DNA of 54,598 bases from an uncultured Clostridia bacterium (GTDB taxonomy: Bacteria; Bacillota; Clostridia; TANB77; CAG-508): the NCBI GenBank assembly GCA_947631185.1, contig CANRKJ010000011.1:1-54598 (forward strand). The letters are read 5' to 3'. This document shows positions 9,139-49,780 of this stretch, piece after piece. The translations under genes were made by a program, and so were the position numbers. Each line of letters starts with the position of its first letter. The first letter of the stretch is position 1. The notes under the pieces were generated by a model. It did not search any database. It was not told where the DNA came from and saw only the letters and a program-made list of their open reading frames with translations.

Positions 9139-9236
9139 AAAAGCGGACTTTATTTAATATAAAAATTTTAAAATTTATTGCAAAATCCGCACTCGTTGTT
9201 TATGCACGAAAATTTCGTAAAAATATTCTGTGCAAA
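9139..9236 (-). repeat. Intergenic double-hairpin element, copy A
   Basis: Read on the minus strand, a GCAC...GTGC hairpin is followed by the core ACAACGAGTGCGG, an AT-rich middle and a returning arm AAAGTCCGC that pairs with GCGGATTT. It is related to copies at 14440, 19128 and 49701. It lies between the RNase P RNA and the glycan operon, about 110 bases upstream of the DUF4422 start. The remainder of 9031-9291 shows nothing else I recognise. Confidence 0.65.
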
Positions 9237-9291
9237 TATTGGTGAATTTTTTATACTAGGAATTTAAAAAAATATCCTTGTATTATAAAAA

Positions 9292-9638
9292 GAGTAAATC
9301 TATAAGCCGGGTTCTGTCGTGAATAGTCATTTATCTAGGATATATATTACTATATACCTCAAGCCACTCAAATCGAGAAGTTGGCGAGCAGCCTTAGCCT
9401 CCTCTACAAGGTGTTGCTCCAGGTAGGGTTTACACTGTCGGCGTATATCACTATACTCCCGGTGAGCTCTTACCTCACCTTTTCACCTTAACTATTTATT
9501 AAAAATAGCTGTTATTTTCTGTTGCACTTTCCCTAGGGTTACCCCCGCTTGACGTTATCAAGTACCATTGCTCTATGGAGCCCGGACTTTCCTCTCCTAA
9601 CACTTTTCAGTAATCAGCAGCGACTATTTAATTTACTC
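9292..9638 (-). ncRNA. rnpB: RNase P RNA
   Basis: The minus strand carries the bacterial RNase P RNA signatures: GAGAGGAAAGTCCGGGCTCC near the 5' end and ACAGAACCCGGCTTATAGA near the 3' end. It also has GGTAACCC and GGTGAAAAGGTGAGG. The ends were set by the P1 helix, where GAGTAAAT pairs with ATTTACTC. The length of about 347 nt is normal. It forms the catalytic core that trims tRNA 5' leaders. A promoter lies at 9647-9675. Confidence 0.95.
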
Positions 9639-9646
9639 CATAATCT

Positions 9647-9675
9647 ATTTTACTATCTTATTCCATTTTAGTCAA
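9647..9675 (-). promoter_or_regulatory. Promoter of rnpB
   Basis: On the minus strand TTGACT and TAAAAT are exactly 17 bases apart, with the -10 box ending nine bases before the predicted RNA start. Confidence 0.75.
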
Positions 9676-9707
9676 GTAAGTTCTAACTAATAAACATTTC
9701 TATTTAT

Positions 9708-11798
9708 CTATGGAGTGCCATGAACATTACACTCTTCGGGAATATTATCATTAGACAATACTTCTGTATATGTTTTTGGGCAATTATGCGTAGCTACCTT
9801 TCCAGTTTCTTCACATATTGCTAATTCTATAATTCCTTTTGGCTTTTCAAATTTAGACCCAGCTAAATTAGCATGTATATTTTTCATTATTTGAGCCCAT
9901 ATTACACCAGCTGGATTATTTCCTTTATATTTTATAGTTTCATTCAAATCATATCCATACCATACAACACCTGTATAGTAATTTGTAAAGCCACAAAGCC
10001 ATCTATCATAATTATCATTTGTAGTTCCAGTTTTAGCAGCAACATCAATATCGTTTATTTTACAATATCTTGCTGTTCCATATTCTCCCTCAACTGGTTG
10101 CTTTAAAAGTGATTTCAACAAATAAGAAACTTGTACAGAAAAAGCTCTCCTTTTAATTTGTGATGTTTTTAAAACTATATTACCATCTCTATCTTCAATC
10201 TTTATATAAAATGTAGGTTCAATATATTTACCATCATTAGAAATAGTATTATAAGCACCTGCCATTTCTAAAGGACTTATACCTTTATCTAATCCTCCAA
10301 GTGCTAGATTTATGTTATCATCAACCTCAGTTAAAGTAGATATTCCAATTTTTCTCATAAATCTTATTGATTCACTAGGAGTTAACTGTTCCATTATTTT
10401 TACAAAAGGTATATTTTGAGAAGATTCTACAGCTCTTCTAACAGTCATATTTCCCTGAAATCCATTATAATCTGTAGGTGTATAACCGTCTTCACCATCT
10501 TCAAATGTTGTTTCTTCATCAACATATACTGTTGCAGGTGTAATTATTTTTTTTGCTAGGGCTGGTGCCAAAACTGCAATTGGTTTTCCAGCAGAACCAG
10601 TTTGTCTAACTGTTTGAGTAGCTCTATTTAATCCTCTAGCTGTCTTTTTCTCACCTAAGCCTCCATTACATCCAACTACATATCCTGTTTTAGGTTCAAT
10701 TATTACAACAGCAGATTGTGTAGTAGCTCCTTCATTTTTTGTAGAGTTCAAAATATATTTATCCTTTTTGCACTCATCATCTATAATTTGCTGAATATTA
10801 GTATTTTGAGTACTATATATCTTAAACCCTGATAGATATATGTAATTTTTTGCATAATCTTTTGATATTGAATATTTTTTTGATATATCATCTATAAGTT
10901 CATTAATCATAGCATCTGTATGATAAGAATAAATTCCGTTACCACTTGCCACTACCTCACCTTTTTCAAATTTTAAGCCATTATCTACTTCCAAAATAGC
11001 AGAATTATATTCATCATCTGTAATCATATTCTGGTCTTTCATAGCAGTTAAAACTGTTTTGGTTCTTTTTTTTATCAATTCTCCATTATCCTTATCAGAA
11101 AAAGGATTATAAGAATTTGGTGAATTATTTAAACCAGCTAAAAAACAACATTCTGCTAAACTTAAATCAGACAATTCTTTATTAAAATAATATTTTGAAC
11201 CAAGCTTTACTCCATAAATATTAGGTCCTACATAAATGACATTAAAATAAGCTTCTAAAATTTCATCTTTGTCCATAAATATTTCAAGCTGACATGCCCT
11301 ACACCATTCTAAAACTTTTCTTTTTATACTACTTTCATTATCACCTGAAATATTTTTTACTAATTGTTGAGTTATAGAACTTCCTCCAAAAGACGAAGAA
11401 CCTTTATGAATTACATAAGTTAAAATTGCTCCTCCCGTCCTTTTTAAATCAATTCCATGATGTGAATAAAATCTTTTATCTTCAATAGATATATATGCAT
11501 TTTTCAAATTGGTTGGAATTTCATTTATTTGAACTTTTTCTTGATTTCTTTCACTTCCCAATATTGCAATAACATTTCCACCACTATCTAATACAGTGGA
11601 TCTTTCAAAATTTATTATACTAGTAACTAACTTTTCTGTTTTTAATGTTTGATAAACAAAAACTAATATCAAAATTATTATAAAAACCAATAAAATCAAC
11701 CAAAATTTTTTATGAAATCTTTTTTTCTCAGGAGTTTCTTTTTCTATTTTATCAATTTTGCTTTTTAATCTTGTACTTTTTTTGCTTTTTTTACTCAA
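9708..11798 (-). CDS. Class A penicillin-binding protein (peptidoglycan glycosyltransferase/transpeptidase)
   Basis: This bifunctional enzyme polymerises lipid II and cross-links peptidoglycan at the outer face of the membrane. It has a Lys-rich cytoplasmic tail and one transmembrane helix at about residues 32-50. The GT51 domain shows EDKRFYSHHG (catalytic Glu) and GGSSITQQLVKN. The transpeptidase domain shows SAGK (SxxK), SQN (SxN) and KTGTTNDNYD. I chose the TTG at 11798 because AGGATGG lies just upstream, giving 696 residues. ATGs at 11819 and 11849 are in frame but lack a ribosome-binding site. The C-terminus has CEETGKVATHNCP. It is a single gene upstream of rnpB. Confidence 0.93.
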   Translation of the reverse strand: MSKKSKKSTRLKSKIDKIEKETPEKKRFHKKFWLILLVFIIILILVFVYQTLKTEKLVTSIINFERSTVLDSGGNVIAILGSERNQEKVQINEIPTNLKNAYISIEDKRFYSHHGIDLKRTGGAILTYVIHKGSSSFGGSSITQQLVKNISGDNESSIKRKVLEWCRACQLEIFMDKDEILEAYFNVIYVGPNIYGVKLGSKYYFNKELSDLSLAECCFLAGLNNSPNSYNPFSDKDNGELIKKRTKTVLTAMKDQNMITDDEYNSAILEVDNGLKFEKGEVVASGNGIYSYHTDAMINELIDDISKKYSISKDYAKNYIYLSGFKIYSTQNTNIQQIIDDECKKDKYILNSTKNEGATTQSAVVIIEPKTGYVVGCNGGLGEKKTARGLNRATQTVRQTGSAGKPIAVLAPALAKKIITPATVYVDEETTFEDGEDGYTPTDYNGFQGNMTVRRAVESSQNIPFVKIMEQLTPSESIRFMRKIGISTLTEVDDNINLALGGLDKGISPLEMAGAYNTISNDGKYIEPTFYIKIEDRDGNIVLKTSQIKRRAFSVQVSYLLKSLLKQPVEGEYGTARYCKINDIDVAAKTGTTNDNYDRWLCGFTNYYTGVVWYGYDLNETIKYKGNNPAGVIWAQIMKNIHANLAGSKFEKPKGIIELAICEETGKVATHNCPKTYTEVLSNDNIPEECNVHGTP

Positions 11799-11958
11799 AT
11801 AAAAACCATCCTTTCTCATTGGTAATTTATTATTTTTATATAATATCATACTATAATAATTTTAACAATAATTATAAAGATATTTTATATAATTAATATC
11901 TAAATTTTCTATATTATAAATTACGAAAGTATATAAGAATTAACATTATAAACATAAA

Positions 11959-11993
11959 TAAAAGCCCTCCATGTTTTTTACATTTTGGGCTTA
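11959..11993 (-). terminator. Terminator of leuS
   Basis: AAGCCC...GGGCTT with an inner AAATGT/ACAT pairing is followed on the minus strand by TTTTA, eleven bases after the leuS stop. The remainder of 11799-12003 shows nothing else. Confidence 0.7.
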
Positions 11994-12003
11994 TATTATT
12001 TAA

Positions 12004-14418
12004 TTATTTAATAACTATATTAACTAGCTTTCTAGGTACAACTATTTCTTTTATAATAGTTTTACCTTCTAACTTATCCTTTATGCTATCTAATTTCTTT
12101 GCTGTTGACTTCATTTCTTCTTCTGTATATGAAATTGGAACTTCTATTTTTCCTTTTATTTTTCCATTTATTTGTACAACCATTTCGTACGTATCTGCTA
12201 TAATTTTTGATTCATCATATGTTGGCCATGTTTCATAACTAATTGTTTCTGTATTGTTAAACACTTCACTCCATATTTCTTCAGCAATATGAGGAACTAT
12301 TGGACTCAATAATTTAACAAAGTTTTTTGCATATTCTAAATTCCAAGAATTCTCTTTGTATACTGCATTTACAAATATCATCATTTGAGATATTGCTGTA
12401 TTGAAATTTAATGTTTCATAATCTTCAGTTACTTTCTTTACTGTTTGATTATATATTTTATCTAGATTTGGATTATCTTTAAATTCTCTTTTTTCTTCAC
12501 AATATAATCTCCATACACGATCTAGAAATTTTTTTATTCCTCTAACTGCTTCATCATTCCATGGCTTATCAGCTTCAAGTGGTCCCATAAACATTTCATA
12601 CATTCTAAGTGTATCTGCACCATATTGCTTAACAATATCATCAGGGTTTACCACATATTTAGGGAAACGTTTACCCATTTTTACACCATTTGAACCTAAT
12701 ATCATTCCTTGATGCACCAATTTCTTAAATGGCTCTTTAACACTAACTAAACCTTTATCATATAAATAATTATTCCACATTCTAGAATATAATAAATGTC
12801 CAACTGCATGCTCTGGTCCACCTACATATAAATCTACTGGCATCCAATGTTCAATTAACTTAGAATCAGCAAAAACTTCATCATTAGTTGGATCTATGTA
12901 TCTTAAGAAATACCAACTTGAACCTGCTGAACCTGGCATTGTAGCTGTTTCTCTAACACCTTTTACTCCATTAACTTCAACTTTTTTCCATTGAGTAGCA
13001 TTTTCTAATGGTGCTTTACCATTTTCTCCTTTATAATTATCCATTTCTGGTAATACTAAAGGTAAATCTTTATCTTCTAATACAATATCTCTTCCATCTT
13101 CTAAATGAATAATTGGTATTGGTTCTCCCCAATATCTTTGACGTGCAAAAATCCATTCTCTAATATGATAATTATTTTTCTTTTTTCCACATCCCATTTT
13201 TACCAGTTTCTCTGTAATAGCAATTTTTGCATCTTCAACTGTTAAACCTGTAAATTCTTCACTATTAATTAATTTACAATCCTTACCTAAGTAATCTTGT
13301 TTTTCAAAAGCACATTCAGAGGTATCTCGTCCATCTATTACCTGAATCATAGATATATTGTGTTCTTTTGCATATTCAAAATCTCTTTGATCATGACTTG
13401 GGACTGCCATTACAGCTCCTGTTCCATAACTTGCTAAAACAAAGTCTCCCAAAAATATAGGTACTTCCTTACCGTTAACAGGATTAATTGCAAGCACTCC
13501 TTCTAATTTTACACCACTTTTTGTTTTATTAAGTTCAGTTCTATCAATATCTGATTTCTGTGCTGTTTCTTCTCTATATTTAATTACTTCATCCCAGTTT
13601 TTAATTCTATCTTTTAATTCATCTACGAGTTTGTTTTCAGGTGCCAAAACCATAAAAGTAATACCATATATTGTTTCTATACATGTAGTAAAAATTGAAA
13701 ATTTTCCACCATCTTTGATTTTAAATTCTACTTCTACACCTTCAGATTTTCCAATCCAATTTCTTTGAATTTCTTTAGTTGATTCTGGCCAATCAAGTTC
13801 ATCTAATCCACTTAAAAGTTTTTCAGCAAAAGCAGGTATATCAATAATCCATTGTTTCATATATTTACGTATTACAGGATATCCTCCTCTTTCACTTTTT
13901 CCATCTATTACTTCATCATTTGCCAAAACAGTACCTAACTCTTCACACCAATTAACTGGCATATTTATTTGCTTAGCAAATCCATCTTCATATAATTTTT
14001 TAAATATCCATTGAGTCCATTTATAGTAGCTAGGATCACTTGTAGATATTACTCTGTCCCAATCATATGAAAGCCCCAATCTTTTTAATTGTCCTTCAAA
14101 TGTTTTTATATTTTCTTCTGTAAATTTAGCAGGGTGATTACCTGTTTGTATCGCATATTGTTCTGCAGGAAGTCCAAAAGAATCATATCCCATTGGATGA
14201 AGTACATTATAACCTTGCATTCTCTTCATACGTGATACTATGTCTGTTGCAGTATATCCTTCTGGATGTCCAGCATGAAGCCCTACACCAGATGGATATG
14301 GAAACATATCAAGTGCATAGTATTTAGGTTTAGAAAAATCCCATGCATCTGTCTTAAATGTTTTATTCTTTTCCCAATAATCCTGCCATTTTTTTTCTAT
14401 TTCTTTAAAATTATACAT
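12004..14418 (-). CDS. leuS: Leucyl-tRNA synthetase
   Basis: This enzyme charges tRNA-Leu. The start is the ATG at 14418 (MYNFKEIEKKWQ) with AAAAGGAGAG upstream. An in-frame ATG at 14466 lies inside repeat copy B and has no ribosome-binding site. The protein has 804 residues, normal for a bacterial LeuRS. The class I HIGH motif is HAGH in PSGVGLHAGHPEGYT. The KMSKS loop reads KMGKR. The CP1 editing domain has TTCIETIYG where most LeuRS have TTRPDTLFG, while GTGAVMAVPSHDQRD, with the key Asp, is intact. WYFLRYIDP, the anticodon-binding region and the C-terminal domain are present. The tRNA-Leu gene at 4865 is one substrate. Confidence 0.96.
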   Translation of the reverse strand: MYNFKEIEKKWQDYWEKNKTFKTDAWDFSKPKYYALDMFPYPSGVGLHAGHPEGYTATDIVSRMKRMQGYNVLHPMGYDSFGLPAEQYAIQTGNHPAKFTEENIKTFEGQLKRLGLSYDWDRVISTSDPSYYKWTQWIFKKLYEDGFAKQINMPVNWCEELGTVLANDEVIDGKSERGGYPVIRKYMKQWIIDIPAFAEKLLSGLDELDWPESTKEIQRNWIGKSEGVEVEFKIKDGGKFSIFTTCIETIYGITFMVLAPENKLVDELKDRIKNWDEVIKYREETAQKSDIDRTELNKTKSGVKLEGVLAINPVNGKEVPIFLGDFVLASYGTGAVMAVPSHDQRDFEYAKEHNISMIQVIDGRDTSECAFEKQDYLGKDCKLINSEEFTGLTVEDAKIAITEKLVKMGCGKKKNNYHIREWIFARQRYWGEPIPIIHLEDGRDIVLEDKDLPLVLPEMDNYKGENGKAPLENATQWKKVEVNGVKGVRETATMPGSAGSSWYFLRYIDPTNDEVFADSKLIEHWMPVDLYVGGPEHAVGHLLYSRMWNNYLYDKGLVSVKEPFKKLVHQGMILGSNGVKMGKRFPKYVVNPDDIVKQYGADTLRMYEMFMGPLEADKPWNDEAVRGIKKFLDRVWRLYCEEKREFKDNPNLDKIYNQTVKKVTEDYETLNFNTAISQMMIFVNAVYKENSWNLEYAKNFVKLLSPIVPHIAEEIWSEVFNNTETISYETWPTYDESKIIADTYEMVVQINGKIKGKIEVPISYTEEEMKSTAKKLDSIKDKLEGKTIIKEIVVPRKLVNIVIK

Positions 14419-14439
14419 TTTAATCTCTCCTTTTATATA

Positions 14440-14540
14440 AGAACAATAGTGGGCTTTGCAATACATTTAATATTTTAATATAAAAAAGTCCACACTCGTT
14501 GTCCATCCACAAAAAATTATATAGTTATTTTTCTGTGGAA
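14440..14540 (-). repeat. Double-hairpin element, copy B, in the leuS 5' UTR
   Basis: On the minus strand a CCACA...TGTGG hairpin is followed by GGACAACGAGTG and a stem GTGTGGACTTT pairing with AAAGCCCAC, ending ACTATTGTTCTT directly before the leuS ribosome-binding site. A promoter at 14551-14579 would place the whole element at the start of the leuS transcript, so it can act as an mRNA leader. It shares its core with copies A, C and D. No T-box motif (TGGNACC) is present. Confidence 0.7.
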
Positions 14541-14550
14541 TTTATTGTAA

Positions 14551-14579
14551 ATAATATCATAAAATACATATATTATCAA
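14551..14579 (-). promoter_or_regulatory. Promoter of leuS
   Basis: On the minus strand TTGATA and TATTAT are 17 bases apart. The predicted start point falls just before the first arm of element B. Confidence 0.6.
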
Positions 14580-14612
14580 GCATTTAATCAAAAAGTTTCT
14601 TTATGTAATACT

Positions 14613-16043
14613 TTATTTTTTTATACTTAATTTATTTATTAGTTCAAGTAATGTATTTAAAAAATTTTTACATGATTTCAAATATAAGATTTCTTTAGTA
14701 GTGTGGACATTTTTAATATCTGGTCCAATTGATATCATTTCCAAATTTGGCATTTTTTTATATATCATTCCACATTCCACTCCTGCGTGAATAGCACAAA
14801 TTATTGGTTTCTCCATATTATGTACCTCCATATATGCCTCTATGTACGCTTTTTCCAAATTTGAATTTGGTTTATATTTCCACCCTGGATAAGAAGAATT
14901 TTCACTAATTGAAAAACCATATTTTTTAGCTAAACTATTATTAATTTCTTTTATCTGTTCTTTTTTAATATCATCACTTGATCTTATGAGTTGCGTTATA
15001 TTTATCTTTCCATAATTAACATCAACAACCCCTATATTACCAGAAACTTCTACTAAACCTTCTACATCTTTACTATATTCAATTACTCCTTGCTTTAAGT
15101 TAAGTATAAAATTAATTAATTCTTTTGAATTCTCTATATTTAACCCCTTTATCGAATTATTATTTATTTTCGAAATTTCAACTTTTAACTTTTTATCTTC
15201 ATCAGTCAGTTCTGTTATTTTCAAAACATCATCTATTTCCTTTTTTATATTTTCAGAAGTAGTTCCAAATACTACTTTAGTACTATTAGGAATTGCATTA
15301 TCCTTATTTCCTCCAACAAAAGAAACTATTTTTACATTATCCAATTTATTTAAAATTTGAGAAGCTAAAAAATTTGAATTAATACGTCCTTTGTCTATGT
15401 CTATACCTGAATGTCCACCATATAATCCAGTTATATCTAAAGAATATATACATTCATTTATTTCAGTCTGTTTTACTTCTTTTTCATAACAAAGTCTTAC
15501 ACCACCTGCACAACCAACAATAGCAGTATTTTCTTCTTCTCCATCTACGTTAATTAAATATTCAGCATGTATTCCAGAATAATCAAAATATTTAGCACCA
15601 TCCATACCAATTTCTTCTTGAGTTGTAAATAAACAATAAATATCAGGATGCTTAATTTCTTCGTCATCCAACAATAACAATAAAGTTGCAACACCTATAC
15701 CGTCGTCCGCACCCAGAGTTGTGTCTTTAGCTGTATATGTATCTTCATCTTCTATAATTTCAATCGGATCAGTGTTAAAATCATGAGAACTATATTCAGT
15801 TTTCTCACATACCATATCTGTGTGTGCTTGAAAAATTATTGCATCTTTATCCTCATAACCTTGTGTTGCTGTTTTTTTTATTAAAACATTATAATAATTA
15901 TCAATTCTATATTCTAATTCTCTTTTCTTAGCAAAATCACAAATATACTCTGCTATTTTTTGTTCTTTGCATGAATTTCTGGGGATTTTACAAATTTCCT
16001 TAAACCAATACAATAGTTTTTCATATTTTTTTTCTATATCCAT
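14613..16043 (-). CDS. pepD: Aminoacyl-histidine dipeptidase (M20 metallopeptidase)
   Basis: The 476-residue cytosolic dipeptidase hydrolyses Xaa-His and other dipeptides using two metal ions. Family landmarks are QAHTDMVCEKT (metal His and Asp), TTLGADDGIGVA (bridging Asp), TTQEEIGMDGA (catalytic base Glu), NVDGEEENTAIVGCAGG and, near the C-terminus, CAIHAGVECG with the last metal His. The lid or dimerisation domain lies between about residues 190 and 390. AAAGGAG is eight bases before the ATG. It is a single gene, probably for peptide scavenging. Confidence 0.95.
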   Translation of the reverse strand: MDIEKKYEKLLYWFKEICKIPRNSCKEQKIAEYICDFAKKRELEYRIDNYYNVLIKKTATQGYEDKDAIIFQAHTDMVCEKTEYSSHDFNTDPIEIIEDEDTYTAKDTTLGADDGIGVATLLLLLDDEEIKHPDIYCLFTTQEEIGMDGAKYFDYSGIHAEYLINVDGEEENTAIVGCAGGVRLCYEKEVKQTEINECIYSLDITGLYGGHSGIDIDKGRINSNFLASQILNKLDNVKIVSFVGGNKDNAIPNSTKVVFGTTSENIKKEIDDVLKITELTDEDKKLKVEISKINNNSIKGLNIENSKELINFILNLKQGVIEYSKDVEGLVEVSGNIGVVDVNYGKINITQLIRSSDDIKKEQIKEINNSLAKKYGFSISENSSYPGWKYKPNSNLEKAYIEAYMEVHNMEKPIICAIHAGVECGMIYKKMPNLEMISIGPDIKNVHTTKEILYLKSCKNFLNTLLELINKLSIKK

Positions 16044-16126
16044 AGCTTTACTCCTTTTATTTTAAAATGTTTTTATTCTTCTGGTTATATCACATAATCA
16101 TTTTAATTAAAATTCATTCTATAATA

Positions 16127-16249
16127 AATACAAATATTAATCAATTATATTTATTATAATCATTATTTTTTTAATACAATAAGATCATTAAAATTTACAA
16201 AAAGTTACATCTTTCAACATTATTGTAGTAAATAATTAATATTTGTATT
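16127..16249. repeat. Inverted repeat in the region upstream of the MATE gene
   Basis: AATACAAATATTAAT at 16127-16141 returns as its exact reverse complement at 16235-16249, about 90 bases apart, within the 288-base AT-rich stretch between the divergent pepD and MATE genes. It could be paired operator half-sites or simple AT-rich structure. No clear promoter was placed. Confidence 0.35.
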
Positions 16250-16331
16250 ATAATGATTACTATAATAATATTATATATATTTTATAAAAAAAAATAATAA
16301 TATAATTTTAAAACTTGTAAGGAAGTAACAT

Positions 16332-17594
16332 ATGAACACAAAAATACCTTTTAAAGAAATACTGAAAACATTTATATTTGTATTACCATACATATTTGTA
16401 GAATTTACAAATACTTTATTATTAACAATTGATAAATCTATATCAAATTCAATTGGAAAAACTGCTATTATTGTGTTTTCTTCATTTATAACATTAAATT
16501 GGGCTATAAATACAATTCAAACTTGTATAGGAAATGCACATACAATTGTATTAGCAAGAGATAAGGGAAATTCAAAACAAATCAATAATTCAGCTATGTT
16601 TATAGAAATAGTCAGTTCTGTAACAATTTCAATAATACTTTTTAGCTTTTCAAGACAAATCACATATGTATATAATTTAGAAAACAACGCTCGCGAAATA
16701 TTGTCAATAATATTAAAATTAAAAGCTATTCAATTACCCATTCATTCAATTGGATTAGTTCCTAAAAATATATTAAAAGTTAATACCAAAACAAATAAAA
16801 TATGGTTTTCGACAGTAATTTCATCTATAATAAATATATTAGGAGACCTTTTAAGTGTAAAACTCGGATATAATGAAATTGGAATATATGTTGCAACTAT
16901 TGTTTCATCTTTAGTAAATACTGTATTATTATTGATTTTTTCTAAATATAAATTATTTAAAATTTCTTTTAATTATATAAAGCTAATGTTATATTTAGGT
17001 AAAGATTTAATATTTAATAAAATTATACAAAGAATTGTAAATATATATTACACACATGTAGCTAGTTCATTTGGAACAAATATTTATGCAATACATTGTG
17101 TATGTGGAACAATTATTGATACACTATGTGAAATAATTGAAGGATATTATTCTGGGTTATTAGTTGAATATTCAAATGATATAGAACAAAAGAAAGAACA
17201 TCTATTAAAGAAAGTAGATAGTATCGAAATTTATGGGAATATTTTTGCTATATTATTTATTCCAATATTTCTATATCCTTTATGGCTAGCTTTAGGCAAT
17301 TCCATTTCTTGGAGCGAGTGTAATCCATATATATGGATATATTCTATTGAATTTGTAGCCACAGTAGCAGGATGTAATTATAGAGCTTACCTTTCAGCTA
17401 ATAAAAATACAAAATCAATTAGTATGATGGCTTTTATAGGTGGAATATGTGTAAGAGTTCCACTGTGTTATATAATATATAAATATAAAATTGGAATAAT
17501 AGGTTTATCCATGGTATGCGGTATTGATAGAATTGTAAGAGCAACATATTTAAGATTATATATAAAATTCAAAAAGGAAACACTCATTACATAA
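16332..17594 (+). CDS. MATE-family efflux transporter
   Basis: The 420-residue integral membrane protein has about twelve predicted helices in two similar halves, the plan of the MATE/MOP superfamily of Na+- or H+-driven drug and metabolite exporters. It opens with EILKTFIFVLPYIFVEFTNT and carries the loop IGNAHTIVLARDKGNSKQINN, similar to the MATE loop after helix 2. AAGGAAG precedes the ATG. The substrate is unknown. It is first in a plus-strand island with a truncated Nudix ORF and a TIM-barrel protein. The downstream Nudix remnant is in the same frame immediately after its stop codon, so the 3' border may be a recombination joint. Confidence 0.8.
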   Translation: MNTKIPFKEILKTFIFVLPYIFVEFTNTLLLTIDKSISNSIGKTAIIVFSSFITLNWAINTIQTCIGNAHTIVLARDKGNSKQINNSAMFIEIVSSVTISIILFSFSRQITYVYNLENNAREILSIILKLKAIQLPIHSIGLVPKNILKVNTKTNKIWFSTVISSIINILGDLLSVKLGYNEIGIYVATIVSSLVNTVLLLIFSKYKLFKISFNYIKLMLYLGKDLIFNKIIQRIVNIYYTHVASSFGTNIYAIHCVCGTIIDTLCEIIEGYYSGLLVEYSNDIEQKKEHLLKKVDSIEIYGNIFAILFIPIFLYPLWLALGNSISWSECNPYIWIYSIEFVATVAGCNYRAYLSANKNTKSISMMAFIGGICVRVPLCYIIYKYKIGIIGLSMVCGIDRIVRATYLRLYIKFKKETLIT

Positions 17595-19127: not shown

Positions 19128-19231
19128 CAAGAACAATAGCAAACTTTTTTATATAAAAATATTAAAATTAATTACAAAGTCTGTACTCGTTGTTCGTCCG
19201 CGATAATTTCGTAGAAATTTTATGTGCAAAC
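19128..19231 (-). repeat. Double-hairpin element, copy C
   Basis: On the minus strand a GCAC-starting AT-rich hairpin is followed by GGACGAACAACGAGTAC, an AT-rich middle and the return arm AAGTTTGCTATTGTTC, which pairs with GAACAACGAGTACAGACTTT. It lies between the gerW terminator and tRNA-Thr, about 35 bases upstream of the tRNA. A TATAAT lies between the element and the tRNA. Confidence 0.65.
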
Positions 19232-19265
19232 GTTAGAGAAGCCTTTATATACCTAGTATATAAAA

Positions 19266-19305
19266 AAAATTATTATAAGAATATAAAAATTCTTATAATA
19301 ATTTT
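19266..19305 (-). terminator. Terminator of the ytfJ (gerW) gene
   Basis: A 16-17 bp stem (AAAATTATTATAAGAAT and its complement) with T runs on both sides begins two bases after the gerW stop. Confidence 0.8.
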
Positions 19306-19307: not shown

Positions 19308-19808
19308 CTAATCTTCATGCCTTATTTCTTTATGTGTAATAACTTTTTCAGTATCATCAATTTCGTCATTATCTATATCATCATTACAATTGTCTGAACC
19401 CAAATTATTCTTTTCTATAATTTTTTCAAACATTTTATCTACTTTTTCAATTAAATCTGGAACATAATCTAATAATTTGTCTATTGCATCATAATGTTCT
19501 ACTGTAATAAATTTTGGTGCACCTAAATTTTCAGAATCAATAATAATAAATCCAATTGGATTTATTTTCACGGCTGCTCCACTTCCTCCACCAAAAGGAT
19601 ATTCTTCTTCATCTTCTTTATTACATTTTGTTTTCGGAGAAAAGTCAGTACCTCCTGCAGCAAATCCAAAACATACTTTTGAAACAGGAATTATACACAT
19701 TCCTGTTTGTGTAGAAATTGGATTTCCTATAATTGTATTCACATCTACCATTTCCTTTATACTATTCATAGCAGTTTTCATCAAATTTTCTATTGGATGT
19801 TCTCTCAT
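19308..19808 (-). CDS. ytfJ: GerW/YtfJ family sporulation protein
   Basis: The 166-residue protein carries the whole GerW core: HPIENLMKTAMNSIKEMVDVN, TIIGNPI, IPVSKVCFGFAAGG, FGGGSGAAVKINPIGFI and a C-terminal helix (IDKLLDYVPDLIEKVDKMF). In Bacillus the protein is needed for normal spore germination and is made in the forespore, so this gene supports a spore-forming host. A charged Asp-rich tail follows the domain. GAGGTG precedes the ATG, which overlaps the DUF2953 stop by four bases (ATGA). The same gene pair (ytfI-ytfJ) is known in Bacillus. Confidence 0.95.
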   Translation of the reverse strand: MREHPIENLMKTAMNSIKEMVDVNTIIGNPISTQTGMCIIPVSKVCFGFAAGGTDFSPKTKCNKEDEEEYPFGGGSGAAVKINPIGFIIIDSENLGAPKFITVEHYDAIDKLLDYVPDLIEKVDKMFEKIIEKNNLGSDNCNDDIDNDEIDDTEKVITHKEIRHED

Positions 19809-42404: not shown

Positions 42405-42446
42405 ATTCCCCTTTGATTATTTAATAATCTGAGGGGAATTTTTTTA
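42405..42446 (+). terminator. Terminator of the 112-aa gene
   Basis: ATTCCCC pairs with GGGGAAT and encloses a further ATTATTTAATAAT stem, followed by T7. Confidence 0.85.
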
Positions 42447-42482
42447 ATTAACCAAAATTAATATTTATATTTAAAAAAGGAA

Positions 42483-43097
42483 TTAATTATCAAATAATTT
42501 TATATTTTTATTTAATAATTTTAGAAATTCACCAATATGATAGCCATCAGCAAATCCGTGATGAACCATTATTGTTAAATGGATATAATATTTTTTATCT
42601 ACCTCTTCATATTTATCCCATAAAAATTGAGGTATTGTAATATCCTTACTAAAAACAGGAACAAATCCTGTATAAGAAAACCATGGTTGAGAAGAAAGCC
42701 ATATATCTGCCATATTTTTCTCTGCAGAATATTTTTTATCTTTAAGAAACTTATCTTGAATTCTAACAAAGTTTTCAATATATTCATAATAACTGTTAGC
42801 AGATGGTAAAGAAAAATATCCAATTGTATGATCATCATACATTTGAGTATAATTTGAAAAGACTTCATCACAATAATATATTTTTCCATCTTTTGCCCTA
42901 TATTTAAAACAATCTATTTGATTTGCTGTTTTAGTGATTAAATATCCTAATGTTGCATAAAAATGTCTATGAATTTTACAATAATTAACTAAATTAGTTA
43001 CTTCAATTTTTGTCGTAATATACATAAACGGATTATCAAAACTGTTATAGTGATTAAATAAAGCTTGTCTACTAAAATTTTCTACTTCTTTTATCAT
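42483..43097 (-). CDS. Chloramphenicol acetyltransferase-like acyltransferase
   Basis: The 204-residue protein matches the CatA fold: an N-terminal FSRQALFNHYNSF (the CAT FxHF-type start), FKYRAKDGKIYYCDEVFSNYT in the middle, WFSYTGFVPV, and the active-site block MVHHGFADGYHIGEFL with the catalytic His of HHxxxDG (about H180). Residues that bind chloramphenicol in classical CAT are not all recognisable, and such chromosomal CatA-like proteins often act on other hydroxyl substrates, so resistance is not implied. GGGGAAAA precedes the ATG. It is a single gene. Confidence 0.88.
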   Translation of the reverse strand: MIKEVENFSRQALFNHYNSFDNPFMYITTKIEVTNLVNYCKIHRHFYATLGYLITKTANQIDCFKYRAKDGKIYYCDEVFSNYTQMYDDHTIGYFSLPSANSYYEYIENFVRIQDKFLKDKKYSAEKNMADIWLSSQPWFSYTGFVPVFSKDITIPQFLWDKYEEVDKKYYIHLTIMVHHGFADGYHIGEFLKLLNKNIKLFDN

Positions 43098-43178
43098 AGA
43101 TTTTCCCCTTTATAAATTTTTAATATTTTACATAATATATTATCACAATTTAATCGCTTTATCAACACTTTCTTTATA

Positions 43179-44246
43179 TTATAAATTTTTTAAAACATAA
43201 TCTAATTTTTCAAAATGTTTTTCAGATTCTCTTTTATATTGTTCAATATCTAATTTGTAGTTTAAGTCTTCATTATTTAATTTTGATACATCAAATTCAT
43301 CCATTTTTCTTATATCCATTATTTTTCCTTTAAAATTTATATCTTTTAAAGCATTTATAGTTTTATCACTATATGCAATTGGAATTATTGTTTTATTCAT
43401 TACTAACCCCAATATGTTTGCGTGAAATCTACTTCCAATAATAATATTAGAATTTGCTAAAGTTTTTAATGCTGTATCTATATTTCCATTATAATTATAA
43501 ATTTCTACATCATCTTTTAAATTTTGATTATCTAATTTTTTAACAATAGACTTTATAGCCTCTTCATCTCCTTCGCCTTTACAAAAAGACATCAATGTTA
43601 TTTTATATTCTCGAGCATAAAAATACTTAATAAATTCAATAATTTTTTTTTCATAATTCTCTTTATATTTTAAACCTACTTTTTTTGAACAATCTATACA
43701 TGAAATTACCACTCTCTTTTCTTTATAAATTTCTGGTAAATCATATTGCAAGCTAAAAACAATATCTGGAGCTATTCTAACTGAATTTAAATTGCTAAAT
43801 AAATCATAAGAATTTTTATCTCTAAAACAAACATCATCTGCTTTTTCAAAAATTTTATAAAATCTATTATAATATTCTTTTGTTTTATATGGGCCAAAAT
43901 TTGTTCCAATTATATAATACTTTTTTCCACCACCTATATAATATTTTTGTTTTAAGCTATCATCTTGTTCTATAAACATGCTACCTCCAATTAAACATGT
44001 AAAATCACATTTTTTCATATATTCATTTTCTAAATTAGTATGATTAAATGACAAAATTTTAATTATTTTATTTACTAATTTGGCAGTATTTTTAAATTTT
44101 AAAGAAAAATTGTCTCCAAATTTACTTGTAGAATTATATAATGTAACAGTTTCAAAATTACAATTTTTGTATCTATTTGTAATAATATGAACAAATAAAT
44201 CATCACCTAAATTATTGTTTAAATAAGTTTGCAAAAAGACTCTCAT
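43179..44246 (-). CDS. Polysaccharide pyruvyl transferase family protein
   Basis: The 355-residue protein has the family frame: LQTYLNNNLGDDLFV at the N-terminus (nucleotide-sugar-like GD motif), LIGGSMFIEQ, GTNFGPYKTKEYYNRF, FEKADDVCFRDKNSY, APDIVFSLQ and the C-terminal NIIIGSRFHANILGLVMNKTIIPIAYSDK (the conserved S-R-x-H motif). These enzymes add pyruvate ketals to surface sugars from phosphoenolpyruvate, or act on teichoic-acid-like glycans. No other glycan gene is adjacent, so the acceptor is unknown. A small ORF precedes it closely. Confidence 0.9.
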   Translation of the reverse strand: MRVFLQTYLNNNLGDDLFVHIITNRYKNCNFETVTLYNSTSKFGDNFSLKFKNTAKLVNKIIKILSFNHTNLENEYMKKCDFTCLIGGSMFIEQDDSLKQKYYIGGGKKYYIIGTNFGPYKTKEYYNRFYKIFEKADDVCFRDKNSYDLFSNLNSVRIAPDIVFSLQYDLPEIYKEKRVVISCIDCSKKVGLKYKENYEKKIIEFIKYFYAREYKITLMSFCKGEGDEEAIKSIVKKLDNQNLKDDVEIYNYNGNIDTALKTLANSNIIIGSRFHANILGLVMNKTIIPIAYSDKTINALKDINFKGKIMDIRKMDEFDVSKLNNEDLNYKLDIEQYKRESEKHFEKLDYVLKNL

Positions 44247-44248
44247 TT

Positions 44249-44332
44249 TTATTCCCCCAAATTTTCCTCTATTTCTTTTGTGTTCTTATACTTTTCAATA
44301 TAATAACATAAATCAAAAACCATATCAACCAT
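44249..44332 (-). CDS. Short ORF upstream of the pyruvyl transferase gene
   Basis: A 27-codon ORF (MVDMVFDLCYYIEKYKNT...) starts three bases after AGGTGAT and stops three bases before the pyruvyl transferase ATG. It may be a leader that couples translation or the remnant tail of a lost gene. No match is recognised. Confidence 0.35.
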   Translation of the reverse strand: MVDMVFDLCYYIEKYKNTKEIEENLGE

Positions 44333-44377
44333 AATCACCTGTCCGTATATTTAATTAAATTTGTTGAACATTACTAA

Positions 44378-44412
44378 ACCCTCCTTGTTAATTTTTTTAT
44401 AACAAGGAGGGT
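44378..44412. terminator. Strong hairpin between nrdG and the pyruvyl transferase unit
   Basis: AAACCCTCCTTGTTA pairs with TAACAAGGAGGGT around a T-rich loop. No clear U tract follows on either strand, so it may be a structured terminator or an mRNA stability element. It lies about 75 bases after the nrdG stop. Confidence 0.55.
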
Positions 44413-44488
44413 CAATTTCATTTTGCCCTTTTCATATACTTTGAAAGTTCTTAGATCTTTCTAGATAAAAACTTTGCCAACATTATAT

Positions 44489-44980
44489 TTATTCATAAAT
44501 AACAATCTGATTTTCCTTTATTGATTTCTTAACATCTATTACTCTTTGATTTGAAGATCCTTTCCATTTAAGAGTAGGATCAAATAAATCATTTACAAAT
44601 TGTCCATCTACCAAAACATCTATATAATCTAAAACTTCTTTATCTTTTAAATCTTTATCAAATAAATATCCTGTCCATACCCATATATCCTTATTAGGAT
44701 ACTTTTCTTTAAACTTTTTTGCAAGTTTTGTAGTTCCTTTTATATTTACTGGATGCATAGGTTCTCCACCTAAAATTGATAATCCTCTGATATGTTCTTG
44801 TCCACATAAATCAATTATTTTATCTATAACACTATCATTAAATTCTTTACCATTTTCAAAGTTCCATGTTTCAGGATTAAAACAATTATTACAATGGAAT
44901 TCACATCCTTGCATAAATACTGACACTCTAACTCCTGGTCCATTTGCTATATCCATTTTCCTAATTAAATTATATCTCAT
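44489..44980 (-). CDS. nrdG: Anaerobic ribonucleotide reductase activating protein
   Basis: This radical SAM enzyme generates the glycyl radical on NrdD. The 163-residue protein has GVRVSVFMQGCEFHCNNCFN with the CxxxCxxC cluster (C26, C30, C33) that holds the 4Fe-4S centre, GGEPM after LSIL, and PNKDIWVWTGYLFD typical of NrdG. Its ATG overlaps the nrdD stop by four bases (ATGA), so the two are translationally coupled. Confidence 0.97.
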   Translation of the reverse strand: MRYNLIRKMDIANGPGVRVSVFMQGCEFHCNNCFNPETWNFENGKEFNDSVIDKIIDLCGQEHIRGLSILGGEPMHPVNIKGTTKLAKKFKEKYPNKDIWVWTGYLFDKDLKDKEVLDYIDVLVDGQFVNDLFDPTLKWKGSSNQRVIDVKKSIKENQIVIYE

Positions 44981-47172
44981 ATCTGTGCCACCTTATTATC
45001 AATATGTAAAACCCTTTCTTTTATTTCTTGAGTTCTACCTTTGTTCCAGAAATTTGTTCCTATATATCCACATGTACGTCTTGCAACATTTAACTTATTG
45101 TGGTCTCTATTTCCACATGATGGGCAATACCATTCTAAATTTTCATCTATTAAAATTTCTCCTGTATATCCACAATTTTGACAATAATCACTCTTCGTAT
45201 TTAGCTCAGCATACATAATATTATCATAAATAAATCTAATAACATCTAATACAGCCCCTATATTGTTTTGAAGATTTGGAGTTTCAACATAAGATATAGC
45301 TCCACCAGGACTTAATTTTTGGAATTCGCTTTCTACTGCTAATTTTGTAAATGCATCTATTTCTTCAAATACTGGAACATGATAAGAATTAGTTATATAA
45401 TTTCTGTCTGTAATACCTTTAATATTGCCAAATCTTTCTTTTAAACATTTAGCAAATTTGTATGTTGTAGATTCAATTGGAGTTCCATAAACAGAATAAT
45501 CAATATCCTCTTCTGCTTTCCATTTTTTAGTTGCATCATTTAAGTGGTTCATTATTTTAATTCCAAGTTCTTTACCTATTCCATTATCAGTATGAGAATG
45601 ACCAGTCATGTATTTTACACATTCATATAATCCAGCATATCCTAGAGAAATAGTTGAATATCCATGGCGCATAAGCTCATGTATTGATTCACCTTTATCT
45701 AATCTAGCCAAAGCTCCATGTTGCCACAATATTGGTGCCACATCACTTGTTACATTACTTAATCTATTATGTCTCAATTGAAGTGCTTTATGACATAATT
45801 CTAATCTTTCATCAAATATTTTCCAAAATTTATCTATATCCTTACCTGATGACAAAGCTATATCTGGTAAATTAATTGTTACCACGCCTTGATTAAATCT
45901 ACCATAATATTTGCCTTTTCCTTCTTTATAATTTTTAGCTTTTGCAATATTTCCAATGCTCATTGTTCTATCTGGTGTAAGAAATGATCTACATCCCATA
46001 CAAGGATAACAGTCTCCTTCACCATTTTCATTTATTTTAAGTTCCTTCATTACTTTTTCTGATATATAATCTGGAACCATTCTTTTTGCTGTACATTTAG
46101 CTGCAAGTTCTGTTAAATAATAATATTTACTATCTTCATGAATATTATCCTCTTCAAGAACATATAAAAGTTTTGGAAATGCAGGAGTAATGTATACTCC
46201 TTGTTCATTTTTAAAACCTAAAATTCTTTGGTTTAAAAATTCTTCAATTATCATTGCTAATTCATCTTTATATTCGTCTGTTTCTCCCAAATACATATTT
46301 ACTGATAAAAATGGAGCTTGGCCATTTGTATTAGTCATTGAATTAACTTGATAATTGAAAGTTTGAACACCATCTGCAACTTCTTTTCTTGTATCTTCCA
46401 TTGCAAAATTTTTACAATCTTCTTCTTTAAGTTTTCTATCTTTATATTTCTTATAGTATTTGTCATAACTAGCTCTAACAAAAGGTGCTAAATGTGAAAG
46501 AGAAATTGTAGCACCACCATAACTTGATGATGTAACAGCTAAAATGATTTGAGTAGCAATTGTAGCAGCTGTAATAAATCTATGTGGTTTTTCAATCATT
46601 ACACCATTTATAACAGTTCCGTTTTGAAGCATATCATCTAAATTTATAAGTTCGCAATTATGAAGTGCGTTCTGTGCAAAATAGTCAGCATCATGAAAAT
46701 GTATTATTCCTTCATCATGTGCTTTTACTATATCTTCAGGTAGCAAAAATCTTCTAGTGATATCTGTACTTGTAATTCCAGCCAAATAGTCTCTTTGTGT
46801 AGTTACAACTGTAGCATTTTTGTTTGAATTCTCGTTATTCCAATATTCATTTTCACCTTCAATAAGTTCTTTGATACTTTGATCTGTAGTATTAGCTTTT
46901 CTTACTAATTGTCTAATATAACGATAAGTAATATATTTTTTTGCAAGTTGATATTTATTGAATTCCATAAGTTTTTCTTCTATAATATCTTGAATATCTT
47001 CAACTAATATTCTTTTTTTATTTAAATCTTCTATATACTCAATAATAGCTTTAATTTCATCATTAGAAGCCTTTTCTTTTCCTCTTACTTCCTTATTAGC
47101 TTTTTCAATTGCAATTCTTATCTTTTCTGGATCATAATCTACAATATGTCCATCCCTTTTTACTATTTTCAT
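44977..47172 (-). CDS. nrdD: Anaerobic ribonucleoside-triphosphate reductase
   Basis: The class III reductase makes dNTPs under anoxia using a glycyl radical and formate. The 731-residue protein has an N-terminal ATP-cone (MKIVKRDGHIVDYDPEKIR, about residues 1-95), the barrel with FHDADYFAQNALHNCELINL and CYPCMGCRSFLTP, the C-terminal zinc site (CQNCGYTG and YCPSCGN) and the radical Gly in RRTCGYIGTNFWN. GAAGGAG precedes the ATG. A palindrome lies 76-91 bases upstream, between it and the divergent Crp/Fnr gene. It is strong evidence for an anaerobic host. Confidence 0.98.
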   Translation of the reverse strand: MKIVKRDGHIVDYDPEKIRIAIEKANKEVRGKEKASNDEIKAIIEYIEDLNKKRILVEDIQDIIEEKLMEFNKYQLAKKYITYRYIRQLVRKANTTDQSIKELIEGENEYWNNENSNKNATVVTTQRDYLAGITSTDITRRFLLPEDIVKAHDEGIIHFHDADYFAQNALHNCELINLDDMLQNGTVINGVMIEKPHRFITAATIATQIILAVTSSSYGGATISLSHLAPFVRASYDKYYKKYKDRKLKEEDCKNFAMEDTRKEVADGVQTFNYQVNSMTNTNGQAPFLSVNMYLGETDEYKDELAMIIEEFLNQRILGFKNEQGVYITPAFPKLLYVLEEDNIHEDSKYYYLTELAAKCTAKRMVPDYISEKVMKELKINENGEGDCYPCMGCRSFLTPDRTMSIGNIAKAKNYKEGKGKYYGRFNQGVVTINLPDIALSSGKDIDKFWKIFDERLELCHKALQLRHNRLSNVTSDVAPILWQHGALARLDKGESIHELMRHGYSTISLGYAGLYECVKYMTGHSHTDNGIGKELGIKIMNHLNDATKKWKAEEDIDYSVYGTPIESTTYKFAKCLKERFGNIKGITDRNYITNSYHVPVFEEIDAFTKLAVESEFQKLSPGGAISYVETPNLQNNIGAVLDVIRFIYDNIMYAELNTKSDYCQNCGYTGEILIDENLEWYCPSCGNRDHNKLNVARRTCGYIGTNFWNKGRTQEIKERVLHIDNKVAQI

Positions 47173-47247
47173 TTCTTTGGTTCTCCTTCGAATATTTTAT
47201 CTTAATTAGATTTGTATAAATTTTATTAATAAAAGCAATAATATACA

Positions 47248-47263
47248 AGTTGCACTTGCAACT
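47248..47263. promoter_or_regulatory. Palindromic operator between nrdD and the Crp/Fnr gene
   Basis: AGTTGCACTTGCAACT is an inverted repeat with perfect 7-base arms and a two-base centre, the shape of a Crp/Fnr dimer site. On the minus strand a TAAAAT -10 (47220-47225) would place its centre at about -42 for nrdDG, the position for class II activation. On the plus strand it contains the -35 of the regulator gene, which fits autorepression. Confidence 0.55.
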
Positions 47264-47284
47264 TTTTAAAATTTTTATTATAAT
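47256..47284 (+). promoter_or_regulatory. Promoter of the Crp/Fnr regulator gene
   Basis: TTGCAA and TATAAT are 17 bases apart on the plus strand; the -35 element lies inside the palindrome at 47248-47263. Confidence 0.55.
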
Positions 47285-47401
47285 TTTAAAAGCAAGTAAT
47301 TATAAAGCTTTTAAAACTTTTTCATTTTTTCTATAAAATGTAAACTTTGAAATTTACTTATTATTTCAATATAAAAATTACTTTGAAAGGATTTTTTTAT
47401 T

Positions 47402-48034
47402 ATGTTTAATCCATTTGAAAATTTATCCAAATCTCAAATAAAAAAATTATATGAATTGTTAGATGCACACATATATAAATATAGCAAAGATCAAGAAATA
47501 CTTCCAACAATTAAAATGGGAAATATTATAGGTATTATATTATCGGGAAAAGCTCAAATAATTCAAACTGAATATAATGGAAATGAAATTTTATTACAAG
47601 AATTAAAAGAAAATAGTATTTTTGGATCTAATATATCAAATACCAATAGTGAAAACAATCAAATTCTAGCTAAAGAAAATACAGAAGTTTTAGTTATAGA
47701 TTATAATAAAATAATTAATCCTAGAAATATAAAATACAACTATTTTAACATATTTTTTAGAAATCTTTTTGATATTATTAATGAAAAATTCAAAGAAACA
47801 AATGATAGGATAAAAGTTTTAGAAAAAAAACAAATACGTAATAAACTTCTAGAATATTTTGAAATTGAATATAGAAAAACATATTCTAAAAGAATTTACC
47901 TACAATATTCTTTAAAAGAACTAGCAGATTATTTATCAGTAAACAGATCTGCTATGTTTAGAGAACTAAAAAATCTAAAAAATGAAAATTTTATTGAAAT
48001 AAAAAACAGAAGAATTACTTTATTATATAAATAA
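47402..48034 (+). CDS. Crp/Fnr family transcriptional regulator
   Basis: The 210-residue protein has an N-terminal cupin-like sensor (about residues 15-110, with MGNIIGIILSGKAQIIQTEYNGNEI), a long dimer helix (RNLFDIINEKFKETNDRIKVLEKKQ) and a C-terminal winged helix with LKELADYLSVNRSAMFRELKNLK as recognition HTH. It contains no Cys at all, so it cannot hold an Fnr Fe-S cluster, and the cAMP-contact residues are not evident. The signal is unknown. GAAAGGA precedes the ATG. It is transcribed divergently from nrdDG with a palindrome in between, which points to nrdDG as target. Confidence 0.88.
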   Translation: MFNPFENLSKSQIKKLYELLDAHIYKYSKDQEILPTIKMGNIIGIILSGKAQIIQTEYNGNEILLQELKENSIFGSNISNTNSENNQILAKENTEVLVIDYNKIINPRNIKYNYFNIFFRNLFDIINEKFKETNDRIKVLEKKQIRNKLLEYFEIEYRKTYSKRIYLQYSLKELADYLSVNRSAMFRELKNLKNENFIEIKNRRITLLYK

Positions 48035-48059
48035 AACTGTACTTCAATTTGTACAGTTT
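48033..48059. terminator. Bidirectional terminator
   Basis: AAACTGTAC pairs with GTACAGTTT between the convergent regulator and MmcQ-MGMT genes, overlapping both ends. Confidence 0.7.
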
Positions 48060-49054
48060 TGTTTCCACTGATATTTTTTTAAATCCACTCTATTATTTTC
48101 TACTTTTATTCCGTCTCGTTCTAATTTTTCCTTTTGTTTGTTCTTTCCCCCAAAAACAAAAGCTTCTGATAATTTTCCTTGGCTATTTAAAACTTTATAA
48201 CAAGGATATTTATTTTCATCAGGATTTTTATGTAATATATTTCCTACTACTCTAGATAGTCCTGCATTTCCCAAATATTCTGCAACTTGCTTATATGTAA
48301 CTACTTTACCTCTTGGAATAGTAGTCAAATAATTAAAAACTTTAGTTGATAGTTCACTTTCTTTATTTTTTTCACCAAATGATAAATTGTAACTATTATC
48401 AATGTAATCATATATTTCATCAATAGGTAATGTATTATCTAATTTTATCGTTATCCAACTCTTTTTATTCATATGATAACCAGGAAATATATTTTTATTA
48501 TTAATAACGCTTTCAGCATTATTTTTTTGAAATCTTAAATCAATAATTTCAACTTTTTCTCTTGAATCTATACCCAATTTATTTTCTGAAATTGTAAGAA
48601 TTATTGCATACCACTTATTATTTTTTTTATTTCTTAATATAGCATTATTATCATATTTTTCCCATAGAAATTCTAATTCATCATCATACTTATTTTTAAC
48701 ATATTCAATAACCATTTTTGTTTGACTATTTTTAAAAATGTTAGATATTGTACAACTATTTATAATTTCTTTTATTTTTTGTTCATATTCATCTCTGACA
48801 CTACCTACAAACTCACCTGTTGAATCTAAAATATCAACTAATATATATTCTTCATCACTTACTAAATCAATTAATTTTGAATACATTTTTTCTTCTGATA
48901 AATTAACTACAATTTTAAATTTATTATTACAAATATTCTCTAAATATGTATAAACATTATTATTTTTCTTAAAACCATACTTTAACAATTTGTTATAATC
49001 AATTTTTTTGTTTTCTATATATTTTTCTAAATCCCTCATTATATTCTCCACCAT
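48044..49054 (-). CDS. MmcQ/YjbR-like and MGMT-domain fusion protein
   Basis: The 336-residue protein joins three parts: about 120 N-terminal residues of unclear type, an MmcQ/YjbR-like domain (about 130-235, with IIDLRFQ and FPGYHMNKKSWITIKL), and a C-terminal methylated-DNA methyltransferase domain (about 245-330: IPRGKVVTYKQVAEYLGNAG, LSRVVGNILHKNP, YPCYKVLNSQGKL, FVFGGKNKQKEKLERDGI). The alkyl-acceptor motif PCHRV is PCYKV: the Cys is kept but His is Tyr, so either alkyl transfer or lesion recognition (ATL-like) is possible. The combination is common in Firmicutes. Confidence 0.88.
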   Translation of the reverse strand: MVENIMRDLEKYIENKKIDYNKLLKYGFKKNNNVYTYLENICNNKFKIVVNLSEEKMYSKLIDLVSDEEYILVDILDSTGEFVGSVRDEYEQKIKEIINSCTISNIFKNSQTKMVIEYVKNKYDDELEFLWEKYDNNAILRNKKNNKWYAIILTISENKLGIDSREKVEIIDLRFQKNNAESVINNKNIFPGYHMNKKSWITIKLDNTLPIDEIYDYIDNSYNLSFGEKNKESELSTKVFNYLTTIPRGKVVTYKQVAEYLGNAGLSRVVGNILHKNPDENKYPCYKVLNSQGKLSEAFVFGGKNKQKEKLERDGIKVENNRVDLKKYQWKQNCTN

Positions 49055-49151
49055 ATTTTTAGTTGTCTAAATTAAAAAAATTATATCACAAAAAAGAACT
49101 ATTGTATAGAACAATAATATCCCCTTCAGTTTTTCTAATAAAACAGAACAA

Positions 49152-49207
49152 ATAGGAAAGGATTACTTTCCTATTATATAAAAAAATCCTGCGGATTACT
49201 CCGCAGG
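49152..49207 (-). terminator. Tandem terminators of the 107-aa gene
   Basis: CCTGCGGA / TCCGCAGG (49188-49207) is followed on the minus strand by T7. A second hairpin, ATAGGAAAG / CTTTCCTAT (49152-49174), lies directly behind it. Confidence 0.85.
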
Positions 49208-49232
49208 TCTCAGGAAAAATCTATGTCAAGAC

Positions 49233-49556
49233 TCAGATGATAGCAATTACCACCAGAGCCAGTATTGTAGACGCCCAATTGGGCAAAAATGGAACCAATG
49301 CACTCTTGACTTTTTTGTAAAATTTAACAATCCATTTAAATACTTTGGGAATCCCTTTCATAACTACATCAAATACATTTAAAAGGACTGTTCCAAAAAA
49401 GTTTCCCATTGTGCTACCCAGTTTTCCGATGCTAACTCCCAATGTCGCCAAAATCGTAATCAGTATGATTGCAGGCAACAAGATATGAATTCCGAGGATG
49501 TAACTAAACCCCAGAATTACCCGTAAAAGGTAACGAAGTAAAAAATATACAGCCAT
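49233..49556 (-). CDS. Small membrane protein, 107 aa, atypical composition
   Basis: A hydrophobic protein with helices at about residues 4-45 (LLRYLLRVILGFSYILGIHI then LLPAIILITILATLGVSIG) and a last one at 90-107 (WASTILALVVIAII). Between them is a basic segment (KVFKWIVKFYKKVKSALVP). It resembles small amphipathic or pore-type membrane proteins, but no family is recognised. GGAGGAG precedes the ATG, and two GC-rich terminators follow. Codons such as CTC, ATC, CGG, GCG and GGG are frequent, unlike the AT-rich neighbours, in line with the cassettes at 269, 37874 and 42062. Confidence 0.65.
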   Translation of the reverse strand: MAVYFLLRYLLRVILGFSYILGIHILLPAIILITILATLGVSIGKLGSTMGNFFGTVLLNVFDVVMKGIPKVFKWIVKFYKKVKSALVPFLPNWASTILALVVIAII

Positions 49557-49700
49557 ACACTATCTCCTCCATTTACAAATCTCTCTATATATAACCAGCC
49601 TGAGAACTGGATTGAAAAAAATAATATATATTTAAATTCCAATATACAAAATTTTGTACATTAGAAATTGTAAAGTATTATATAATTATTATATCAAATA

Positions 49701-49780
49701 ATTAACAATATGTCAATTTTATGTAAACGCACATTGACCGTTGTTAGTCCACAAAAAATTGTATAATAATTTTTCTGACA
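49701..49780 (-). repeat. Double-hairpin element, copy D
   Basis: On the minus strand CAGAAAAATTATTATACAATTTTTTG closely matches the first hairpin of copy B, followed by GGACTAACAACGG. The second stem is different in sequence (GTCAAT pairing with ATTGAC) but in the same place, which indicates selection for pairing. It lies upstream of the 107-aa membrane protein gene. Confidence 0.6.

Follow-up and report, generated by a model that had tools for sequence, protein, structure and literature searches.

Among described small repeats, the closest kind to the element analysed here is, by description, EFAR/Efa-1 of Enterococcus faecalis, whose EFAR repeats Venditti et al. in 2007 are said to have described as miniature insertion sequences, built of variable modules and targeting short hairpin-forming sequences. 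According to the part of PMC2267715 drawn on here, EFAR/Efa-1 is about 163 nt long, intergenic, present in dozens of copies and made up of two adjacent hairpins. BOX, RUP and SPRITE of Streptococcus pneumoniae are also small interspersed structured repeats; BOX is modular and SPRITE lies near gene 3′ ends, and the portion of PMC3049150 used for this comparison gives no rule of insertion behind terminators. Group IIC introns, as presented in part of PMC3898094, recognise a DNA hairpin, for example that of a terminator.

We analysed a window of 54,598 nucleotides (the whole of the stretch presented here) from an uncultured Clostridia bacterium, in which an original prediction, made from the sequence alone, had proposed a four-copy, double-hairpin intergenic element. 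We rate this element as a mobile repeat, small and structured, that occupies a place specific to terminators; the general kind is already known. It resembles EFAR/Efa-1 in size, intergenic place and adjacent hairpins, as far as the partial source for the latter extends. Hairpin targets (reportedly a trait of EFAR; here found for 39 of 52 copies, against 2 of 86 control T-runs) and a modular make-up (again reported for EFAR; here an extra module of ~50 nt in one relative, G022) are further points of likeness. The two are nevertheless set apart by description: the host belongs to another phylum-level group, the sequence is a different one as far as is known, there are three hairpins here, and the target found here is a terminator hairpin followed by a T-tract. 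BOX and RUP differ in their terminal inverted repeats and target duplications, and SPRITE differs in being itself terminator-like, according to the same portion of PMC3049150. Compared with group IIC introns, the element is far shorter and non-coding; in Rfam searches over five loci from relatives no family matched, group II introns included, and the maturase is absent from 24 of 25 genomes of the genus. Like REP and REPIN sequences, finally, it is an intergenic palindrome in a genus with RAYT-like genes, but those genes are flanked by other repeats, and the present element is longer and multi-hairpin.

Copies of the element in the window

Aligned across the genome that contains the window, the full element measures about 130-170 nt and comprises three hairpins, H1, H2 and H3. 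The typical order is a terminator T-tract, H1 (in one example with arms ATATAATAGGAAAGTTC and GAACTTCCTATTATAT around a loop), a short GGCTTCGCC-like turn, H2 and H3. H2 carries a conserved unpaired A within its 5′ arm; H3 has an outer stem GAACAA/TTGTTC and an inner stem that is the most variable part of the element. Several copies in G022 (L255-L263) hold an extra hairpin module of ~50 nt between the H3 outer stem (GAACA) and H3 proper, which indicates that the element is modular. The double hairpin of the original prediction corresponds to H2 and H3; the third hairpin, H1, was overlooked, as were the many copies outside the window. Within the window H1 is degenerate in copy A, shortened in copy C and absent from copy B.

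The window was scored with R3, a covariance model built from 48 copies from the same genome and its relatives, with no window copy in training; since A8, the alignment used for training, had been fitted to an earlier model, R1, that included A, B and C, the test is not fully independent. The features are as follows.

9133..9286, minus strand: copy A (R3 match 9133-9240, 92.7 bits, E 3e-13), with degenerate H1 at about 9250-9286, H2 at 9204-9233 and H3 arms at 9182-9201 and 9133-9151
9287..9639, minus strand: RNase P RNA gene (RF00010, 284.7 bits)
14439..14545, minus strand: copy B (R3 63.2 bits, E 3e-8), with H2 at 14507-14538 and H3 arms at 14485-14504 and 14439-14457, without H1
19129..19261, minus strand: copy C (R3 match 19129-19234, 78.5 bits, E 8e-11), with shortened H1 at 19242-19261, H2 at 19198-19227 and H3 arms at 19176-19195 and 19129-19147
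19262..19305, minus strand: A/T-rich hairpin and T-tract before copy C (-17.2 kcal/mol beside an 8-T run; row L082)
19308-19808, minus strand: GerW-family gene upstream of copy C (TIGR02874)
49701..49785, minus strand: possible degenerate copy D (R3 27.9 bits, E 0.03; R1 E 0.74 in the same genome)

Three of the four proposed copies, A, B and C, are thus recovered by R3 on the minus strand (E 3e-13 to 3e-8), and the fourth, D, is a possible, borderline copy. The stems proposed for A, B and D, and the changes in their sequence, read as they had been described. Copy A starts right at the 3′ end of the RNase P RNA, behind five consecutive T, and the best hairpin before it reaches -3.3 kcal/mol, short of the threshold of -8 kcal/mol. 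Copy B has lost its left part and sits immediately upstream of leuS (TIGR00396), as predicted; a plus-strand R3 match at 14414-14503 (E 0.011) is its antisense shadow. The predicted tRNA-Thr downstream of copy C was likewise found, and the hairpin before this copy is read here as the intrinsic terminator of the GerW-family gene; it is missing from a consensus terminator scan, which requires three G-C pairs. Among the window copies, only C has a clear terminator before the element.

In most of 14 genus mates displayed (L174-L193) the RNase P RNA is followed by a hairpin terminator; in the window it is followed by a T-run alone, and then by copy A.

Copy A as sole blastn query finds 15 other places in its own genome at E <= 4e-4, and B and C are not among the matches listed. 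Rfam recovers RNase P and two tRNAs in the window and nothing else above the gathering score; for copies A and B, lax thresholds yield only matches far under the gathering scores.

Distribution and movement

The covariance-model search that had been proposed as a check was run on the genome itself, on genus mates and on the order, and yielded many further copies. In the genome of the window (2.05 Mb, 78 contigs), 21 matches reach E <= 0.01 with R1, one of them an antisense shadow. Six of 24 genus mates are positive (G002, 7 matches; G007, 12; G008, 2; G015, 12; G017, 5; G022, 14), and the remaining 18, together with 13 genomes from other families, have none. Across the order, a further model (R2) matches at E <= 1e-4 in at least 105 of 385 genomes; all 105 belong to a single family (f1), and they represent at least 21 of 48 genera. 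These counts are lower bounds, with ten candidates per genome scored. A DNA pattern scan of genome contigs returned 37 records that proved to be chance matches, the sole R2 match among them having an E of 0.99. One G015 copy had no blastn match among plasmid and phage records.

Four G015 copies (L115, L121, L126 and L131) are identical at 162-167 of 170 bases, and their flanks agree at 25-45 of 94 bases before and after the element. In G002, some contigs terminate within the element, as is expected where repeats cause such breaks. In G022, the end of what we take from its sequence to be a clpB-like gene is followed by a terminator, then the element, then a second, decayed copy. By eye, the same gene end in seven genus mates (G001, G012, G013, G015, G016, G017 and G019) shows a hairpin and T-run and no element; the downstream gene was matched at 61-220 nt in six of these (all except G015), against 416 nt in G022. 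The site does not represent one clean insertion, given the second copy in G022 and an H1-like remnant in G008 and perhaps G018. Terminal inverted repeats and a target duplication, as in a classical MITE of a DDE transposon, were not seen in the flank tables, which offered no clean same-species empty site for comparison. The copies in the genome of the window are old and diverged; the recent movement of the family is in G015, G002 and G022.

Copies L080 (G000) and L132 (G022) lie behind the same gene, presumably, from its sequence, one for a glycosyl-phosphate transferase-like membrane protein; the two may go back to one old insertion in a common ancestor, or the place may be a hot spot. The genus also harbors a distinct repeat system: RAYT-like Y1 genes (L202, at G000:C19:248-589, and L203, L204, L205, L206, L212, L213, L214 and L218) have flanking repeats of their own, many of them of a GGGACGG...CCGTCCC type.

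Insertion place and direction

Left ends were assigned by hand for 52 of 77 copies, and a copy was counted as lying behind a terminator where a hairpin at least as stable as -8 kcal/mol ended within the T-tract directly before the element. This holds for 39 of the 52. The same test is passed by 1 of 52 when the right side of these copies is read on the other strand, by 1 of 52 when the upstream letters are shuffled, and by 2 of 86 T-runs elsewhere in the loci, a control that includes coding sequence. Most of the T-runs that precede the element have a length of 6-8. Of the 13 copies with no detected hairpin of this strength, copy A among them, L144 and L148 appear to have inserted behind an older copy. 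Among 26 copies fetched from other genomes, ten, from more distant lineages or contig ends, are without H1 by our rule, and 11 of the 16 with H1 pass the same target test. L276 and L282 pass because the preceding hairpin is H3 of the adjacent copy, so that one copy can serve as the target for another.

Over 28 copies examined, the element shares its strand with the upstream gene in 24 of 27 cases and with the downstream gene in 16 of 26, which moves attention from the downstream gene, on which the original prediction had placed its emphasis, to the end of the upstream gene.

Compensating changes

In alignment A7 (51 distinct copies; fitted to the structure, as were A6 and A8), 90.6 percent of cells are paired, and 20 of 28 pairs show changes on both sides; in the wider A6, four of whose members are antisense matches, the figure is 26 of 28. 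A7 has 202 cells with double changes; shuffles give 67.2 (0 of 500 as high), and versions slid out of register give 18-38. The predicted change of stem sequence with pairing kept is therefore borne out on a larger set of copies, and a covariation test by shuffling places double changes far above the shuffles.

H1 allows a check that is fitted to no model, since copies were selected on GG...CC and four inner pairs only (52 of 112 pass). With four evident misfits dropped, 280 of the 288 cells of H1 pairs 5-10 are paired, against a mean of 232.7 when shuffled and 269.9 when shuffled within genomes; in neither case do any of 2000 shuffles reach the observed count. Before the misfits are dropped, pairs 5-14 are formed in 408 of 520 cells, against 346.4 and 387.6 respectively. 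The two differences inside the element between L126 and L131 are both bases of one H1 pair (A-T in one copy, C-G in the other), and may reflect either mixed donors or the copying of one arm from the other. At H1 pair 8, C meets G in 8 of 10 cases, and the right-side G occurs once without the left-side C. The idea that this C derives from the target is weakened, as A at this position also follows GTT in tandem copies. The joint changes of the H1 arms hint that, as the element moves, one arm is templated by its partner or fitted afresh to the target.

A fold selected as RNA on a given strand is expected to tolerate G-U clearly more than A-C. With one constantly mismatched pair excluded, there are 57 G-U cells and 41 A-C cells, and the covariation, lacking a clear G-U preference, fits a DNA fold used for movement as well as it fits RNA. 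The hairpins of the element need not function as RNA. A new structured RNA class had been among the natures first considered: the compensating pairs on which it drew are present, but with G-U and A-C in these proportions such a class is not needed to account for them.

Discussion

To judge from the sequences compared here, the element is very probably a non-autonomous, non-coding mobile DNA repeat whose preferred place is the end of a terminator T-tract, in the direction of the terminated gene. The suggestion of a mobile palindromic element, one of several made originally, is upheld by near-identical copies with unrelated flanks, by an orthologous gene end lacking the element, and by the preferred insertion place. 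An enzyme acting in trans may recognise the folded single strand and, as its target, a hairpin followed by T's; each lineage would then have to keep its stems pairable, since it is the fold that would be read. Insertion behind a terminator would presumably do little harm, such that copies would persist and decay. More tentatively, the H1 3′ arm might pair with the terminator T-tract, and a novel mobilising system might read the fold and not the sequence; this is possible, and we hold it with some doubt.

Strong covariation and a direction fixed relative to the upstream gene would also suit a structured regulatory RNA, formed when a leader or read-through transcript adopts the three-hairpin fold, that affects expression or RNA decay; copy B, with a promoter-like match just upstream, would fall in the leuS leader. 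We regard this as very improbable, however, because copies differ among near genomes and follow unrelated genes, and because most lie past a terminator, where RNA would be scarce. Promoter-like matches, at 79, are no more frequent than in shuffles (81.3), the 57 G-U and 41 A-C cells give no clear RNA signature, and neither the window copies nor the five relative loci matched an Rfam family. An attenuator, as also proposed, sits poorly with the constant presence, next to the element, of the upstream gene's terminator and with downstream genes that are variably oriented. The element is probably not a gene-control switch. Movement as an IS200/IS605- or REP/RAYT-type element, with a Y1 tyrosine transposase that works on hairpins in single-stranded DNA, is doubtful in our estimation, even though the hairpin ends, the fixed strand, the conserved unpaired A in the H2 5′ arm and the lack of a visible target duplication are all in its favor. 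Y1 genes occur in 5 of 7 element-bearing genomes of the genus, but also in 9 of the 18 without an element match (14 of 25 overall), and none was matched in the copy-rich G002 and G007, which are 89 and 86 percent complete, so that the gene may be missing from the assemblies. The IS200/605-type relic of the original prediction is not supported by these absences, nor by the search for a transposase with matching ends: ten Y1 loci were read, none with the element's ends, and their flanks, including the ends of the RAYT-like genes examined, carry other repeats.

The kind of target is shared with group IIC introns (PMC3898094, in part), and RNA-mediated insertion by a reverse transcriptase, as in those introns, would account for it. 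RVT_1 was found in 6 of 7 element-bearing genomes against 8 of 18 others in the genus, and in G015 a reverse transcriptase gene lies 8 nt from the end of one copy. The other 17 of 18 reverse-transcriptase loci, on the other hand, lack the element at E <= 0.1; the group II maturase domain (GIIM) occurs in 1 of 25 genomes, that of G002; and the genome of the window, where all copies are old, is without RVT_1. Several of the enzymes, moreover, appear from their motifs to resemble those of diversity-generating retroelements: this applies to the reverse transcriptases of L301 1710-2681 (G015), L299 (G017), L295 (G007) and L302-L304 (G022), some of them adjoining what is presumably a small Avd-like gene. 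Insertion by such an enzyme appears unlikely. None of the mobilising genes tried (Y1 transposase, group II maturase, reverse transcriptase) matches all element-bearing genomes; the genomes of the genus are incomplete, and gene absences are therefore weak evidence.

The mobile-repeat reading carries a caution, in that covariation in repeated intergenic elements need not imply a regulatory RNA. Small structured repeats are common in bacteria, and their mode of movement is mostly not understood. This family offers many young copies, a sharp target rule and folds that are kept pairable despite sequence change, which makes it possible to test what enzyme moves it and how DNA hairpins contribute to the choice of target.
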